A DNA stretch of 64,000 nt, from assembly GCF_000633415.1 (NCBI RefSeq), contig NZ_AYMV01000035.1, positions 1-64,000 on the forward strand, written 5' to 3'. Below are positions 7,301-64,000 of this stretch, in pieces. Position 1 is the first letter of the stretch. Each line of letters opens with the position of its first letter. The DNA comes from Leucobacter sp. PH1c (GTDB lineage: Bacteria > Actinomycetota > Actinomycetes > Actinomycetales > Microbacteriaceae). Below the pieces are notes generated by a model that was not told where the DNA came from, ran no database searches, and was given only the letters and a program-made list of their open reading frames with translations. The translations under genes were made by a program, and so were the position numbers.

Positions 7301-7373
7301 AGCCGCCTATCGGACTCGAACCGATCACCTGCGCTTTACAAGGGCGCTGCTCTACCAGATGAGCTAAGGCGGC
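7301..7373 (-). tRNA. tRNA-Thr (anticodon UGU)
   Basis: The reverse strand folds as a cloverleaf. The acceptor arms GCCGCC(T) and (A)GGCGGC pair, the D arm contains TAGCTCATCTGGTAGAGC, the anticodon loop is CTTGTAA (anticodon TGT), and the T arm has GGTTCGAGTCC. No CCA is encoded. It follows the terminator of the DsbA-like gene. Confidence 0.97.
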
Positions 7374-14206: not shown

Positions 14207-14244
14207 GCGGCTGCGGCCGCCGGTTTCCCGGCGACCGCAGCCGC
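14207..14244. terminator. Terminator-like hairpin between convergent genes
   Basis: GCGGCTGCGG pairs with CCGCAGCCGC, and inside it CGCCGG pairs with CCGGCG around TTTC, with one mismatch. It lies between the convergent ppm1-like gene and the giant surface-protein gene and may serve both. Confidence 0.7.
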
Positions 14245-38243: not shown

Positions 38244-38305
38244 GCCGCTCCGTCGCACCAGCCGCAGTCGGGCGGTTCGCCGCGCGTCCCCGCGGCGGCG
38301 AAACG

Positions 38306-38345
38306 GGGAAGGGCCCGGGCAGCGTGCGCTGCCCGGGCCCTTCCC
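38306..38345. terminator. Strong terminator between VOC gene and infB
   Basis: A perfect 19-bp stem (38306-38324 with 38327-38345) with a two-base loop lies between the convergent VOC gene and infB and can serve both strands. Confidence 0.88.
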
Positions 38346-38360
38346 GGTGAGGTCCTGCGA

Positions 38361-48493: not shown

Positions 48494-50317
48494 ATGAATG
48501 ATATCCCCTCCTCCGATCAGCCCGGTGGCCAGCCCTCGGGCCAGCCCGCAGGGACGCCCGGCGGCGCCCCCTTCGGGAGCGGCTTCTTCGCCTGGATCCG
48601 CGGCCTCGGCATCGTCCGCGGCAACGACCGCTGGTTCGCGGGCGTCGCCGGTGGCATCGCCGCGCGGGCCGGGATCGACCCGCTCATCGTGCGCGGCATC
48701 TTCATCGTCCTCGCCGTGCTCGGCGGGCCCGGGATCCTGCTCTACCTGCTCGGCTGGCTCCTCCTCCCTGACTTCACCGGCCGCATCCACGTGGAAGACA
48801 TCTTCCGGGGGCGAGCGCACGCCGGGGTCGTGACGGCGGCGATCGTCTTCGCCACGCTCGTCCTGATCCCGGCGTTCTTCTCGATCTTCTCCCCCGGGGC
48901 GTCGCCCTTCAGCGTGTGGGGCTGGGGCGTGTGGGGCGCGATCGGCATTCCCGAGTGGCTGCGCGGCACCCTCGCGTGGCTGTGCTGGATCGCGATCATT
49001 GTCGGTGGCGCCTTCTGGCTGCGCGCCGTGCTGCTTCGGCGCGGGCGATCCGCCGCTGAGCGCGAGGCCGCTGCGGGTGCCGCGGCAGGTTCCGCAGCGG
49101 GTGCGGCGGCCGCCGAGGCAGCCGGAGCCGCGCAGGCTGCGGCGGATGCCGCGGCGGGGGCAGCCTCCGCTGCTGGCGATGCGGCGCGCGGGGCGGCGAA
49201 CTCCGCGGGTGCCGCAGGCAGTGCGGCGGCCGCCGACTTCACGGCGCAGGCACGAGCCTTCGCCGATCGCACCGAGCAGGCCGCGCAGCGCGCCTCCGAG
49301 AGCGCGTCCGAGTGGGGCCAGCGCGCATCCGCGCAGGCCACCCGCTGGAGCGAAGAGGTGGGCCGCCAGGCCGACGAGTGGAGCGCACGGTACGCCGAGC
49401 ACCACGACGCGCACCGCATGGGCGTCGCGCAGTCGGTGATCACGCTCGCGCTCGCGCTCCTCGCCGGCGGCGTGAGCGCCGCCTGGGCCCTCACCGTGCT
49501 GTCGGTGTCGCCCACCACAGCCATGATCGGCGGGCTCACGGTCGCGGTCGCCGTGCTCGCGGTGTCGATCATCATCGCCGGGATCCGCGGACGGCACACG
49601 GGCTGGATCGGTTTCCTCGCGACGTGCGGCGTCGCCGCCCTCCTCATCACGGTCGTGCTTCCGTGGGGCACGCGCTTCCAGCCGTTCGGCACGATGCACG
49701 TGGCCGGAACCGAGGCGCCGGGCACCGTGCTCATCGCGGGCACGAGCCAGATCGATCTCACGTCGCTCGACGACCGCGAGCCCCGCGCGGAGACGCTCGA
49801 GGTGTGGCAGCTCGCGGGCAACGCCGAGATCGAGCTCCCCGATCACGCTCCCGTCGTCGTGCAGGTGCGCCTGCTCGCGGGCGCGGTCACCGAGCTCGGC
49901 GACGAGCCCCGCAGCTCGGGCGGACCGTTCCTGCTCCGGAACATCTCGGCCAACCTCCCGCCGCGCGGGAGCGACGCCTACGACGCGGCGGCCGCCGAAG
50001 CCACGGTCGTCACGGTCACAATGCTTGCGGGCCGGGTCGAGGTCGACGGCGTCCGGGAGGCCAGCGCCGAGCGCGCGCCCCGTGCGAACGAGCAGTCGGG
50101 TTCGGCCGGGTCGGAGCGCGACCAGGCGAACGCCGATGAGCGGTCGCGACTGGAGGCCGAGGACCGGGAGCGCACCCGCATCGAATCGGAGATCGATCGC
50201 ATCGATTGGAAGCTGAGCGAGCCGGGTCTGAGCGATCGCGCGGCACGTGAACTGGAATCCTCCCGCGAGGCGCTGATCGACGCGCTGGACGGTCTGACCA
50301 CGGAGGTGGCACGATGA
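48494..50317 (+). CDS. PspC-domain membrane protein with Ala-rich amphipathic insert
   Basis: The 607-residue protein starts with a Gly/Pro-rich tail and a PspC domain (FAGVAGGIAARAGIDPLIVRG) with a membrane helix. Two more helices follow, then a long Ala-rich amphipathic coil (about 190-310), further helices and a C-terminal beta region (MHVAGTEAPGTVLIAG, about 405-510) of a kind often seen in membrane-stress proteins. A charged tail with an ESEIDRIDWKLSE coiled coil ends it. It is divergent from the PspC kinase, so it may be both target and feedback partner. CAGACT ends six bases before the ATG. Confidence 0.82.
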   Translation: MNDIPSSDQPGGQPSGQPAGTPGGAPFGSGFFAWIRGLGIVRGNDRWFAGVAGGIAARAGIDPLIVRGIFIVLAVLGGPGILLYLLGWLLLPDFTGRIHVEDIFRGRAHAGVVTAAIVFATLVLIPAFFSIFSPGASPFSVWGWGVWGAIGIPEWLRGTLAWLCWIAIIVGGAFWLRAVLLRRGRSAAEREAAAGAAAGSAAGAAAAEAAGAAQAAADAAAGAASAAGDAARGAANSAGAAGSAAAADFTAQARAFADRTEQAAQRASESASEWGQRASAQATRWSEEVGRQADEWSARYAEHHDAHRMGVAQSVITLALALLAGGVSAAWALTVLSVSPTTAMIGGLTVAVAVLAVSIIIAGIRGRHTGWIGFLATCGVAALLITVVLPWGTRFQPFGTMHVAGTEAPGTVLIAGTSQIDLTSLDDREPRAETLEVWQLAGNAEIELPDHAPVVVQVRLLAGAVTELGDEPRSSGGPFLLRNISANLPPRGSDAYDAAAAEATVVTVTMLAGRVEVDGVREASAERAPRANEQSGSAGSERDQANADERSRLEAEDRERTRIESEIDRIDWKLSEPGLSDRAARELESSREALIDALDGLTTEVAR

Positions 50318-50778
50318 ACGCCCACGAGAACGCCGCCGGAGCGGCTCCCCTGCCGGGCGAGGGCGCGGCGCAGGATCCCGCGCAGCCGGGCGCCACGCAG
50401 CCGGGCGCCGCGCAGCCGGGCGCCGCGCAGCCGGATCCCGCGCAGCAGGATCCCGCGCCGGAGTTCCCGCAGCCGGAGCAGCCGGAGCAGCCGGAGCAGC
50501 CGGCCCAGCAGGCCCAGCAGGCCCAGCAGGCCCAGCAGGCCCACCCTGCCGCGGCAGCTCCGGCACCAGCTCCCGCACCGCGCCGCAAGCCGGCGCCGCG
50601 CACCGGCCCGATCGTGTGGGGCGCGCTCGTGCTCGCCTTCTGCGGCTACATCGCGCAGCGCATGCTCGGCACGGACGGCTTCGATGCGGCGACCTGGATC
50701 GCAGCGACCACGATCGGGCTCGGCGTGCTACTGCTCGGTGTCGGCGCGGCCGTGCTGATCAGGAACCGGCGCCGCTAG
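50314..50778 (+). CDS. Small membrane protein with Gln/Pro-rich repeats
   Basis: The 154-residue product has a low-complexity N-terminal half made of repeated QPGAA, PEQ and QQAQQA units, and two C-terminal membrane helices (GPIVWGALVLAFCGYIA and TTIGLGVLLLGVGAAVLI). Its start overlaps the stop of the PspC protein by four bases, so the two are co-translated. No function can be named. The DNA from 50376 to 50540 is built from repeated 9- and 15-base units. Confidence 0.8.
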   Translation: MNAHENAAGAAPLPGEGAAQDPAQPGATQPGAAQPGAAQPDPAQQDPAPEFPQPEQPEQPEQPAQQAQQAQQAQQAHPAAAAPAPAPAPRRKPAPRTGPIVWGALVLAFCGYIAQRMLGTDGFDAATWIAATTIGLGVLLLGVGAAVLIRNRRR

Positions 50779-50815: not shown

Positions 50816-50878
50816 CAAATCGCTTCGACTTTGCTCCGGTATTCGCCCCCGATACCGGAGCAAAGTCGAAGCGATTTG
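50816..50878. repeat. Long intergenic hairpin, copy 1
   Basis: A perfect 27-bp stem (50816-50842 with 50852-50878) with a nine-base loop lies between convergent genes. It has no T-run on either side. The arm near the loop is CCGGTAT. It has the same stem and loop lengths as the element at 63011-63073, and the arms match at 21 of 27 positions with the differences compensated. Confidence 0.92.
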
Positions 50879-50911: not shown

Positions 50912-52423
50912 CTAGGACCGGATGCGCGGGATCTCGCGGGTCTGCGTCGAGATCCAGTGGAGCGGAACCTCGATCGAGACCTTCGTGCCGCCCCCCTCAT
51001 CGGGTGCCCAGACGATGCTGCCGCCGAGCTCGCCCTCGACGAGGGTGCGCACGATCTGCGTGCCGAGCCCGTCGCCGACGGTGCCGCCGGGAAGCCCCGT
51101 GCCCGTGTCGACGACCTCGACGGCGAGGCGCTCCTCCGTGCGGTCGGCGCGCACGAACACCGATCCCTCGCGGCCCGCGAGCCCGTGCTCCACCGCGTTC
51201 GTGACGATCTCCGTGAGCGCGAGCGCGAGCGGCGTCGCGTACTCCGAGGGGAGCTCGCCGAAGGCGCCCTCCTTGTGCGGGTGCACCGTCGTGCCGTGCA
51301 GGCTTGCCACCTCGGCGGCGAGCCCCACGACCCGATCGAACACCTCGTCGAAGTCGACGATCTGCGAGAGCCCCGTCGAGAGCGTGTCGTGCACGACCGC
51401 GATCGCCGCGACGCGGCGCATGGCCTGGCCGAGCACCTGCTTCGCCTCCTCGCTGCGCGCGCGGCGGGCCTGCACGCGCAGCAGCGAGGCCACGGTCTGC
51501 AAGTTGTTCTTCACGCGGTGGTGGATCTCGCGGATCGTCGCGTCCTTCGTGATGAGCTCCTGCGCCTGCTGGCGGAGCTCCGTGACGTCGCGCGTGAGCA
51601 CGACACCGCCGACGCGCTTCCCGTCGCGGATCACGGGGATCGAGCGGAGCGTCACCGTGCGGCCGCGCGCATCGATCTCGACGCGCTTCGCGATCTTTCC
51701 CTGCGCGATGAGCGGCAGGGACTCGTTCGTGTCGAACTGCCCCTTCACGACCTCGGCGATCACCTCGGCGAAGTTCTCGCCCTCGATCTCATCGCGGTAG
51801 CCGAGCGTGGTGAAGGTGGTCTGCGTGTTCGGGCTCGCGAACGTGGCCTCGCCGTCGAGGTTGATCCGCACGAGGCCGTCGGAGGCGCGGGGGGATCCCT
51901 GCTCCCCGCCGCGGGTGTTGCCTGGCGCCGGGAAGAGCCCCTCCTGGATCATGTCGAGCAGGTCGCCCGCGACCTCGCGGAACGCTGCGCCGATGCGGGA
52001 GGCGGGCTGCGTATCCGCGACGCTCGTGTGCACCGTGATCACGGCGAAGGGCCCGTGCACGGCGCCCTGGGCGTCGCGGCGGCTCACCGAGTACGCCGTG
52101 AGGCGCATCGGGTTCTCCTCGTACCAGGCCGGCGAGGTCGAGGCCGCGCGCTCCCCCGTCTCGATCGCCTGGTCGACGATCCCGCGCCAGTCGGGGCGGA
52201 GGAAGTCGCCGATCACGTCGCGGTAGAACAGCGTCACCGAGCCGGCTGGGCGGCTGTGCGCCGCCGCGAGGTAGTCGCCGTTCTCCGTCGGCACCCAGAG
52301 CACCACGTCGCTCAGCGCGAGATCGGCGAGCAGTTGCAGGTCGAGGGTGAGCAGCTCAAGCCACTCGATCTCCTCTTCGCTGATGGAGGAGTACTTCGTT
52401 GCAAGGTTCCGGAGAGTGGCCAC
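50912..52423 (-). CDS. PdtaS-like sensor histidine kinase
   Basis: This 503-residue cytosolic kinase has an N-terminal GAF-like domain (LLADLALSDVVLWV), a PAS domain (about 180-285) and a HisKA_2/HWE-type core with the acceptor His301 or His302 in IREIHHRVKNNLQTVASLL. The HATPase domain has EIVTNAVEHG and GLGTQIV. In mycobacteria PdtaS signals to the RNA-binding regulator PdtaR, which is not in this window. The GTG start aligns with PdtaS N-termini; TACGCT (52430-52435) ends six bases before it, so it is probably leaderless. Confidence 0.9.
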   Translation of the reverse strand: MATLRNLATKYSSISEEEIEWLELLTLDLQLLADLALSDVVLWVPTENGDYLAAAHSRPAGSVTLFYRDVIGDFLRPDWRGIVDQAIETGERAASTSPAWYEENPMRLTAYSVSRRDAQGAVHGPFAVITVHTSVADTQPASRIGAAFREVAGDLLDMIQEGLFPAPGNTRGGEQGSPRASDGLVRINLDGEATFASPNTQTTFTTLGYRDEIEGENFAEVIAEVVKGQFDTNESLPLIAQGKIAKRVEIDARGRTVTLRSIPVIRDGKRVGGVVLTRDVTELRQQAQELITKDATIREIHHRVKNNLQTVASLLRVQARRARSEEAKQVLGQAMRRVAAIAVVHDTLSTGLSQIVDFDEVFDRVVGLAAEVASLHGTTVHPHKEGAFGELPSEYATPLALALTEIVTNAVEHGLAGREGSVFVRADRTEERLAVEVVDTGTGLPGGTVGDGLGTQIVRTLVEGELGGSIVWAPDEGGGTKVSIEVPLHWISTQTREIPRIRS

Positions 52424-52639
52424 GTCACCAGCGTAGAGCACGGGCACCGCGGGGAGGCGACGACGCGGATGGGCGCCCCGAACGCACAGTGCGCAAACGC
52501 CGTTGACGCCCGGTAGGACCCGCTTCCTAAGGTGGGCTGCGCGGGCATCGAGGCCCGCGCACCGCTCTCCCGGCCGCACGGGCGACACCGGGGGAAATCG
52601 CGCAGCGCAGCAGATCCGGGACCCTCGAAAGGACCCCGC

Positions 52640-61766: not shown

Positions 61767-62531
61767 ATGAGCGCGCACCACTCCGAATCTGCGACACACC
61801 CGCTTCCCGCCCTCGGCGTGATCCTCGTCGGGGCCGGGGCGGGGCGCCGCCTCGGCGCCGACATCCCGAAGGCCTTCGTGGAGCTGCGCGGACGCAGCCT
61901 GATCGAGTTCGGGATCGGCGTGGTCACGGCGCTCCCCCACCCGGGCCACCTCGTGGTCGTCGTGCCGGAATCGCGCGCGGCGCAGACCCTGCAGCTCGTC
62001 GAGGCGATCCTGCCCCGCGACTCCGACTGGGGCGTCTCCGTGGTCGCCGGCGGGCGCGAGCGCCACGAGTCGGTGCGCTTCGGGCTCGACGCCCTGCCCC
62101 CGAGCGTCGACACCGTCCTCGTCCACGACGCCGCCCGGCCGTTCGCCAGCCTGGAGCTGTTCGAGCGCGTCGCCGCGGAGGTGCGGCGCACGGGCGACTC
62201 CGTGATCCCCGCACTGCCCGTGACCGACACGCTGAAGCGGGTCGACGCGGACGGGATCGTGCACGAGACCGTCGACCGCGCCCCGCTCGTCGCCGTTCAG
62301 ACGCCGCAGGGCTTCCCACGGGAGCTGCTCGCGGCCGCGCACGCCGCCCGCGAGGAGGCTGTGGCAGAGGCGATCCCCACCGATGACGCCGAGGTGGTGC
62401 AGCGCTCGGGCGGGCGCGTGCGCACCGTGCCAGGCGAGCTGCGGGCCCACAAGCTGACCACCCCGGACGATCTGCCGATCCTCGAGCACTTCCTCGCGGC
62501 GAACGCGCTCGGACTGGAGGACGAGGCATGA
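61767..62531 (+). CDS. ispD: 2-C-methyl-D-erythritol 4-phosphate cytidylyltransferase IspD
   Basis: IspD makes CDP-methylerythritol in the MEP isoprenoid pathway. The 254-residue protein has the nucleotidyltransferase loop GVILVGAGAGRRLGADIPKA, VVAGGRERHESV, HDAARPF and QTPQGFPRELL. TACGCT (61755-61760) ends six bases before the ATG. The stop overlaps the ispF start by four bases. It lies after carD, as in many actinobacteria. Confidence 0.96.
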   Translation: MSAHHSESATHPLPALGVILVGAGAGRRLGADIPKAFVELRGRSLIEFGIGVVTALPHPGHLVVVVPESRAAQTLQLVEAILPRDSDWGVSVVAGGRERHESVRFGLDALPPSVDTVLVHDAARPFASLELFERVAAEVRRTGDSVIPALPVTDTLKRVDADGIVHETVDRAPLVAVQTPQGFPRELLAAAHAAREEAVAEAIPTDDAEVVQRSGGRVRTVPGELRAHKLTTPDDLPILEHFLAANALGLEDEA

Positions 62532-62995
62532 TCCGCGTGGGCACCGGCTTCGACGTGCACGCCTACGACGAGGCGGCACCGCTCCGCCTCGCGGGCCTCG
62601 ACTGGCCGGGCGAGCCGGGGCTGAGCGGCCACAGCGACGGCGACGCGGTCTGCCACGCCGTCGTGGACGCACTGCTCTCGGCGGCGGGGCTCGGCGATAT
62701 CGGCGGGCTCGTCGGCGTCGACGACCCGGAGACCGAGGGCGCCGCGAGTACGGGCTTCGTGCGGCTCGCGCTCGAGCGGCTCGCCGCGGCGGGCTTCGCT
62801 CCGGTCAACGTGAGCGTGCAGATCGTGGGCAATCGGCCCCGCTTCGCCGCGCGTCGGGACGAGGCGCAGCGCGCGATGAGCGAGCTCGTCGGCGCCCCCG
62901 TCTCGCTCGCCGCGACGACGACGGATCACCTGGGCTTCACGGGACGTGGCGAGGGCCTCGCCGTGATCGCGACGGCACTCATCGAGCAGCGCTAG
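62528..62995 (+). CDS. ispF: 2-C-methyl-D-erythritol 2,4-cyclodiphosphate synthase IspF
   Basis: IspF closes the cyclodiphosphate ring in the MEP pathway, with zinc. The 155-residue trimer-forming protein has GTGFDVHAY, LSGHSDGDAVCHAVVDALL (metal ligands D and H), GLGDIGG and the C-terminal GFTGRGEGLAV. It is translationally coupled to ispD. Confidence 0.97.
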   Translation: MIRVGTGFDVHAYDEAAPLRLAGLDWPGEPGLSGHSDGDAVCHAVVDALLSAAGLGDIGGLVGVDDPETEGAASTGFVRLALERLAAAGFAPVNVSVQIVGNRPRFAARRDEAQRAMSELVGAPVSLAATTTDHLGFTGRGEGLAVIATALIEQR

Positions 62996-63010: not shown

Positions 63011-63073
63011 CACATCGGGTCGAGTGTGATCCGGTATCGAGTGCGAATACCGGATCACACTCGGCCCGATGTG
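63011..63073. repeat. Long intergenic hairpin, copy 2
   Basis: A 27-bp stem (63011-63037 with 63047-63073) with one G-T pair and a nine-base loop lies between convergent ispF and purM. Stem and loop lengths equal those of the element at 50816-50878, and the loop-proximal seven bases (CCGGTAT) are identical. Confidence 0.92.
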
Positions 63074-63162: not shown

Positions 63163-64000
63163 CTAGGCCGCGTAGCCGCCCACGAGGCGCACGGCGCCGC
63201 CGTCGACGCCCTTGGCGCCCTGCTCGAAGCCCGTGAAGTCGCGCGCCGCGGTCGAGACCGTGCCAGCCACCCACGTGTCGAGCCCCTCGGCCGTGAGCGC
63301 GGCGGCGACCTGCGGCGCCTGCGCGGCCGAGACCACCGCGAACATCCCGACGCCGAGGTTCCATGCGCCCTCGAGCGACTCGAGCGAGTGGCCGCCCAGC
63401 TCGGCGAGGTGGCGGAAGACGGGCAGCGGCGACCAGCTCGCGCGGTCCACCTCGACCCAGGCGCCCTGCGGCAGCACGCGCGCGAGGTTCGCCGCGATCC
63501 CGCCGCCGGTCACGTGGCTCAGCATGTGGATGGCGCCGTCAAGCGCCGGGTCCTCGAGCACGCGCAGCAGCGGCGCCGTGTAGAGCGCGGTGGGAGTGAG
63601 CAGGGCCTCGCCGTAGCTCGCGCCGAGATCCGCGCTGTGGTCGTGGTAGCCGATCCCGCGCTCCGCGAGGATGTGGCGCACGAGCGAGAAGCCGTTGGAG
63701 TGGAGCCCGGAGGCGGCCATCGCGAGCACGACGTCGCCGTCCTGCACGCGAGTGGGCTGGAGCATCTTGTCGGCCTCGACGACGCCCGTCGCGGCCCCCG
63801 CGACGTCGTAGTCGTCCGGGCCGAGCAGGCCGGGGTGCTCGGCGGTCTCGCCGCCGACGAGCGCGGTGCCCGTGGCCGAGCAGGCCTCGGCGATCCCGCG
63901 CACGATGTCGGCGATGCGCTCCGGGACGAGCTTGCCGCACGCGATGTAGTCGGTCATGAAGAGCGGCTTCGCGCCCACCACGACGATGTCGTCGACGACC
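63163..64000 (-). CDS. purM: Phosphoribosylformylglycinamidine cyclo-ligase PurM (partial)
   Basis: PurM forms the imidazole ring of AIR in purine synthesis. The window holds the C-terminal part: PLFMTDYIACGKL, LVGGETAEHPGLL, DGDVVLAMAASGLHSNGFSLVR, HVTGGGIAANLARVLP and GVGMFAVV. The N-terminus lies beyond the window edge. The region 63074-63162 before it is a very GC-rich spacer with no gene. Confidence 0.95.
   Translation of the reverse strand, partial: VVDDIVVVGAKPLFMTDYIACGKLVPERIADIVRGIAEACSATGTALVGGETAEHPGLLGPDDYDVAGAATGVVEADKMLQPTRVQDGDVVLAMAASGLHSNGFSLVRHILAERGIGYHDHSADLGASYGEALLTPTALYTAPLLRVLEDPALDGAIHMLSHVTGGGIAANLARVLPQGAWVEVDRASWSPLPVFRHLAELGGHSLESLEGAWNLGVGMFAVVSAAQAPQVAAALTAEGLDTWVAGTVSTAARDFTGFEQGAKGVDGGAVRLVGGYAA

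Follow-up and report, generated by a model that had tools for sequence, protein, structure and literature searches.

Dispersed intergenic palindromes in Leucobacter sp. PH1c that may occupy two-way transcript ends

The 64,000 nt stretch of DNA analysed here (the window) carries two long hairpins of similar layout, each in a gap between genes, and the question is whether they are palindromic elements, bidirectional terminators or both. Their parts and neighbouring genes are collected in Table 1. In either copy arms of 27 nt are separated by 9 nt, and the two rank at the top of the 40 inverted repeats in the window with arms at most 60 nt apart. The initial annotation described copy 1 as a perfect 27 bp hairpin, which is correct (100% complementary), and copy 2 as a related one of the same size; copy 2 is not perfect (96%). 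It is right that 21 of 27 left-arm positions are the same in both copies and that all six mismatches are mirrored in the right arm; a seventh difference, in the right arm alone, is the source of the G-T pair in copy 2. RNA folding gave z-scores of -11 to -14 for the two copies (each strand against 200 shuffles), and the pattern TCCGGTAT-N5..15-ATACCGGA matched twice in the window and never in 100 shuffles. An Rfam search of the window returned tRNA only above the gathering score; a tRNA gene lies at 7301-7373 on the minus strand.

Table 1. Parts of the two hairpins and genes around them (positions in the window)
Feature	Position	Strand	Remark
Copy 1, left arm	50816..50842	+	27 nt
Copy 1, spacer	50843..50851	.	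9 nt, TCGCCCCCG
Copy 1, right arm	50852..50878	+	fully complementary to left arm
Copy 2, left arm	63011..63037	+	
Copy 2, spacer	63038..63046	.	9 nt
Copy 2, right arm	63047..63073	+	one G-T pair
PspC-domain gene	48494-50317		precedes the 50314..50778 gene
Gene converging on copy 1 from the left	50314..50778	+	no Pfam match
PdtaS-type histidine kinase	50912..52447	-	converges on copy 1 from the right
YgbB/IspF family gene	62528..62995	+	converges on copy 2
AIR synthase (purM-like)	63163..63999	-	converges on copy 2 from the right; truncated by the window end

Gene calls and a scan of both strands bear out that the copies lie between convergent genes and lack a T-run. No hairpin followed by a T-run was detected around either copy on either strand (consensus scan restricted to loops of 3-8, with the same outcome when the bases were read), and by this test neither copy qualifies as a Rho-independent terminator. 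All six convergent gaps above 50 bp in the window contain a hairpin without a T-run, two belonging to the family described below and four unrelated to it (two of these four judged by eye). Positions 38303-38348 and 14207-14244 are examples of strong, unrelated hairpins from such gaps.

The genome from which the window comes (G000; 3.12 Mb in 73 contigs) was searched for further copies. The pattern TCCGGTAT-N3..20-ATACCGGA occurs at 12 places, with 9 bases between the arms in 12/12, and a covariance model gave 38 places at E<=1, with 34 reaching E<=0.001. As 150 of 2704 first-look candidates were scored, the number of places is at least 38 and some weak copies may have escaped; searching the fetched stretches added two more weak ones. 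The core CGAsTnTGATCCGGTAT is present in each arm of about 40 copies. The proposal of a repeat family, which was to be checked by just such a genome-wide model, thus holds. Five contigs break inside a copy (the starts of C9, C34, C57 and C59 and the end of C53), which suggests that strong hairpins may disrupt short-read assembly and that there may be more copies than counted.

A gap-free alignment of ten full copies has 89.3% of its cells paired. Among the 27 stem pairs 14 are invariant, 11 show changes in both partners in one copy or more, and two depart only by unpaired cells; the eight inner pairs were unable to vary because the ten copies were found by exact match to them. In the 52 arms of 26 strong copies G12, T15, G18, T20, C21 and C22 are among the invariant positions, and positions such as 14 and 16 show two or three bases. 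Selection on pairing had been suggested from the two window copies alone. The pairing is indeed conserved, but selection does not follow from this by itself, because a template switch during replication can also make one arm match the other (excerpts of PMC8794818). According to the same excerpts, paired stem changes without two independent mutations have been demonstrated on rRNA genes, and two-step compensation is described for Bacillus terminators in excerpts of PMC5381666; both routes fit the matched arm changes seen here.

The spacer keeps its length, 9 or 8 nt, while its sequence drifts. Half-sites in G000 are paired 26 apart (9-nt spacer) in 35/37 cases and 25 apart (8-nt spacer) in 2/37; for Leucobacter chromiireducens LYC-2 (G001) the corresponding numbers are 18/29 and 11/29. 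Among 27 spacers of clear register, taken from about 40 copies, four identical pairs were found when reverse complements are included, against 0.08 expected. Copy 1 has its spacer in common with L048 and L059, where it stands as the reverse complement, and another identical spacer is found in L050 and L056. The arms of copies with the same spacer differ, in matched pairs.

Eight of 60 genomes, the genome of origin included, matched in a wider search, G000 and G001 many times, and in G001 the family is found at 26 places. A further three Leucobacter, together with three genera from other families, gave 1-4 strand matches in this search, and 35 other Leucobacter had 0-2 matches each. Where another genome had a single R1 match, it resembles an ordinary hairpin and, G076 excepted, was not counted as family. 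A GTDB-wide pattern search, which may exclude the genome of the window, returned 24 stretches. Six belong to L. chromiireducens LYC-2 and carry 7 copies; the other 18, found singly in different organisms, were set aside as chance or ordinary hairpins. For the relative G012 no match better than E 0.1 was found; it groups with G001 (support 91) in a maximum-likelihood tree of two genes from 11 genomes, unlike the raw distances, by which G000 and G001 are closest. The pattern is absent from viral contigs, phages gave no blastn match and plasmids gave one 29-base match at E 0.4; with no relative found in these three sets, a phage, plasmid or viral origin was set aside. Searches of the open-access literature for Leucobacter palindromic repeats, for actinobacterial REP-like or RAYT elements and for Microbacteriaceae intergenic palindromes gave no description of the family. 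It is genuine and, on the basis of this open-access search, apparently undescribed.

Palindromes of similar geometry were also seen elsewhere. Another Leucobacter, G076, has four copies of GAATCCGCCCGACTTTGTCCGACTTC or close variants with a 9-nt spacer (spacer lengths by eye; loci L222, L223, L239 and L235), alike in geometry and different in the tip. In a sample of 398 genomes that left out G001 and G076, CGASTNTG-N27-CANASTCG matched in eight; six of these, with one match each, were dropped as no long perfect hairpin is present. G462, from another genus, has seven matches, six of them with longer arms GAGTTTGTGCGG, and G466, of the same genus, has one. The palindromes in G462 (L258, L260-L264) and G466 (L259) appear as a third family with near-identical arms and differing spacers of constant length, 17 bases between the arms in 7/7 where 6-24 were allowed. 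CGAsTTTG blocks thus stand 27 apart in most copies of three lineages, with genome-specific tips and copy-specific spacers, a likeness that may come from shared ancestry or from a shape that recurs.

We classified the gene context with a simple gene finder, leaving out the G001 loci L202-L207. Over both genomes 29 of 41 classified sites are convergent and one is divergent. Both neighbours are present at 22 of the 27 sites in G000 (15 convergent, 6 tandem and 1 divergent, the weak hit L044) and the remaining five lie at contig starts, while the 19 sites of G001 are 14 convergent and 5 tandem. The convergent excess over other gene pairs of the same loci has p 2.9e-8 in G000 and 5.9e-7 in G001, against a background that is local as the loci were selected for holding copies. 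The copies are extragenic and mostly downstream of genes, as in REP-type placement; at L052 in G000 the copy overlaps the called end of a gene by 19 bases. For the look-alikes, one of four in G076 is convergent and three are tandem, and in G462 and G466 together two of seven are convergent, three tandem, one divergent and one within a called open frame (L262).

At only five of the 27 G000 sites, both window sites among them, does G001 also carry a copy between the corresponding genes (L055/L077 less clean), which shows turnover between the two species; the G001 kinase site holds several copies. To read the two window sites in relatives, we used the best 30 loci each from the 53 genomes with the kinase and the 50 with the IspF-type gene. 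With G000 and G001 excluded, an unrelated hairpin near the stop codon reaches a score >=15, a cut-off chosen after inspection and without shuffle control, in 7/28 relatives at the kinase site and in 4/28 at the IspF site, where the set includes sister species with near-identical hairpins (L133, L136). The remaining relatives have weaker hairpins or none, often owing to a short gap. In G012 the hairpin at site 1 is present as a single copy genome-wide. It had been asked beforehand whether copies would be confined to the window, and whether relatives would have unrelated and unpaired sequence at both sites; further copies exist, and these 7 and 4 relatives carry another strong hairpin in that position, with none found in the rest.

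The 40 bases outside the arms are rich in C and poor in G towards the hairpin, on both sides. The mean C-over-G skews are 0.32 and 0.29 for 14 isolated G000 copies and 0.25 and 0.24 for 13 G001 copies; over the 28 flanks in G000 the mean is 0.31 and 24 values are positive. A control of 18 convergent gene ends without a copy gave a mean of 0.04 (p 6.8e-5 against the family); a control of 28 convergent ends (mean 0.00) included gaps with arrays, which the smaller one omits. Measured from the stop codon the family sites have a mean of 0.19. For unrelated hairpins the mean is 0.04 (10 in relatives), and neither of two from the window exceeds 0. Since the C-rich lead is missing there, it is a mark of the family and not of hairpins generally. 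Loading of Rho on this lead is a guess.

Several sites hold arrays of two to four copies. A first list of 24 spacings (94-240 bp), made up of full copies and some hand-picked half-copies, is periodic at 10.45 bp (R 0.76), and 0 of 20000 jittered sets came as high at any period of 8-13, the periodicity having been noticed before it was tested. The p-values were 0.011 for G000 alone, 0.001 for G001 alone and 0.003 for unique values; the spacings 111, 195, 123 and 159 are off phase. The test was repeated under fixed rules. Midpoints of model hits (n=20) then gave R 0.66 and p 0.0012; taken genome by genome, p is 0.11 in G000 (0.026 with the period fixed at 10.5) and 0.032 in G001. Same-strand half-sites with scores above 9, 13, 17 or 20 gave R 0.76-0.87, a best period of 10.2-10.4 and p from 0/5000 to 0.009, and contribute spacings of 51-52, 73 and 82-83, likewise near whole turns. 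The spacers are mostly unrelated: among 27 pairs matched in length, two scored above every one of 200 shuffles and a further three reached 0.01-0.025. Those within L054 and within L073 resemble duplicates, and without these and L206 the spacing set (n=18) has R 0.85. An array unit of 26 or 52 bp was rejected, as it fits 52, 104 and 156 and fails 73, 82, 94, 125 and 134. Beside main palindromes at L042, L049, L054 and L080 we observed inside-out half-sites 26 bp from their neighbour, with linkers such as AACTTAGTT. The spacing of neighbouring copies by whole turns of about 10.4 bp suggests that they are recognised as DNA. Should the register hold in new strains, neighbouring copies would lie on the same helix face, which is unneeded for a role as RNA.

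Excerpts of PMC3733652 and PMC2817692 describe REP/BIME as short dispersed extragenic palindromes downstream of genes, often convergent ones, single or clustered, with palindromy kept in variants and with links to gyrase binding and Rho-dependent termination. In comparison with these excerpts the present family is likewise dispersed, extragenic, downstream of genes or between convergent ones, single or clustered, and maintains its palindromy. It is unlike REP/BIME in its 27-bp arms, its length-kept spacer and copy numbers far below the more than 100 that these excerpts give as usual, and in the tag and transposase. GTAG or CGTC, the tags by which excerpts of PMC3733652 recognise REPs, occur in 0/54 flanks of 27 isolated copies, and a Y1 transposase (PF01797) was found in 0/54 Leucobacter genomes, 5/14 control genomes being positive. 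On the missing tag and missing transposase a RAYT-type REP was rejected; the family resembles REP/BIME in placement yet is not a REP by the tests run. As to the BIME arrangement, copies cluster in groups of 2-4 and some half-sites stand inside-out at a distance of 26 bp, and the orientation of copies is undefined because each full copy is symmetric. According to excerpts of PMC8269248, 353 of 535 structured 3' ends in Streptomyces clavuligerus are without U-runs. The present hairpins, strong, placed after stop codons and without a U-run, are like these U-lacking ends or I-shaped terminators of GC-rich actinobacteria, which by the same excerpts form no sequence family, whereas here some 40 copies share arm sequence. 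Template-switched hairpins as in the excerpts of PMC8794818 could explain the matched arms, but not the copy number or placement.

Our best reading, which we give a probability of roughly 0.55, is that of lineage-specific dispersed intergenic palindromes with REP/BIME-like placement, occupying two-way transcript-end slots. Palindromic element and bidirectional terminator, posed as alternatives in the initial annotation, are mutually compatible, and the balance of evidence is on the side of a dispersed repeat occupying such slots. Most likely, as judged from sequence features, the hairpins serve as two-way transcript ends and possibly as DNA sites too. Each converging transcript would run through a C-rich, G-poor stretch where Rho could load and then into a very stable hairpin, which would stall the polymerase and shield the 3' end from exonucleases; a single element would set both ends. 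Whole elements would be copied around the genome and the arms kept matched by template switching, selection or both. We infer termination, protein binding and mobility of the family from sequence. The 38 places, the convergent placement, the unrelated hairpins at the same gene pairs, the C skew, the identical spacers and the few shared sites argue for this reading. Against it stand the lack of a T-run, the many relatives (most of them) without a strong hairpin at these sites, the lower share of convergent sites among look-alikes (1/4 in G076, 2/7 in G462/G466), the C-rich flank being absent at unrelated hairpins, and a Y1 search of 54 genomes that found no spreading enzyme; conserved arm sequence, fixed spacer length and helical phasing are all unneeded for a transcript end.

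These last features are those expected if the palindrome is mainly a DNA site, with two inverted half-sites at a fixed distance bound by a putative protein (nucleoid protein, gyrase, recombinase or a reader of extruded hairpins, where converging transcription accumulates supercoils) and the RNA hairpin secondary. Arm bases conserved beyond pairing, the spacer kept in length but not in sequence (12/12 cores at 9 nt; 35/37 and 18/29 pairs in G000 and G001) and the spacing of neighbours in whole turns favour this possibility, which we still hold to be doubtful: its protein is only hypothetical, paired changes where the base varies freely, as at arm position 14, are unexpected for a plain double-strand site, and the periodicity, seen before testing, reaches only p 0.11 for G000 alone in one rule-based set. 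A MITE, a non-autonomous element mobilised by a transposase that the genome encodes, would account for the dispersed copies, some identical spacers and the few sites shared with the sister species. No target-site duplication of 5, 6 or 8 bp was found in 27 copies, and 4-bp matches occur in 4/27 against 0.5 expected, at four different offsets, so that no consistent duplication is evident. Nor do the arms seem to be ends of a larger insertion sequence, as nearly all of the 37 exact half-sites (100 of 119 matches listed) are inside palindromes and no longer element with the arms as distant ends was noticed among them; outside, among the matches listed, are the one at the end of contig C53, which stops within a copy, and two in the C19 array. 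At weaker scores 20 half-sites in G000 and 16 in G001 are unpaired, several of them solitary. With the Y1 family search of 54 genomes also negative, we consider the MITE improbable. Ordinary bidirectional terminators, alike by chance or shared function and forming no repeat family, would agree with what some relatives have at these gene pairs, namely hairpins of similar size and unrelated sequence, but the 38 places in G000 contradict this, as do the common arm sequence and spacer length, and the G012 hairpin at site 1 is a single occurrence; we regard this explanation as very improbable indeed.

Further, we speculate, as a rather unlikely extension, that the palindromes represent a new Microbacteriaceae class of DNA sites, defined by arms with CGAsTTTG blocks about 27 bp apart in three lineages, a drifting spacer, genome-specific tips and helically registered arrays. 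They would be recognised, perhaps in the form of extruded hairpins, by a putative protein that handles supercoils or transcript ends where genes converge and that also spreads the palindromes without a RAYT.

In excerpts of the literature REP-like repeats are tied to RAYT transposases, and the present family, alike in placement but with no RAYT found, a spacer kept in length and helically phased arrays, poses the question of what spreads and reads such palindromes. Its roughly 40 similar two-way gene ends are a test set for how transcripts end between converging genes in GC-rich actinobacteria, one that includes, for some sister species, unrelated hairpins between the same genes. The family also lets selection and template switching be compared as the origin of matched arms.
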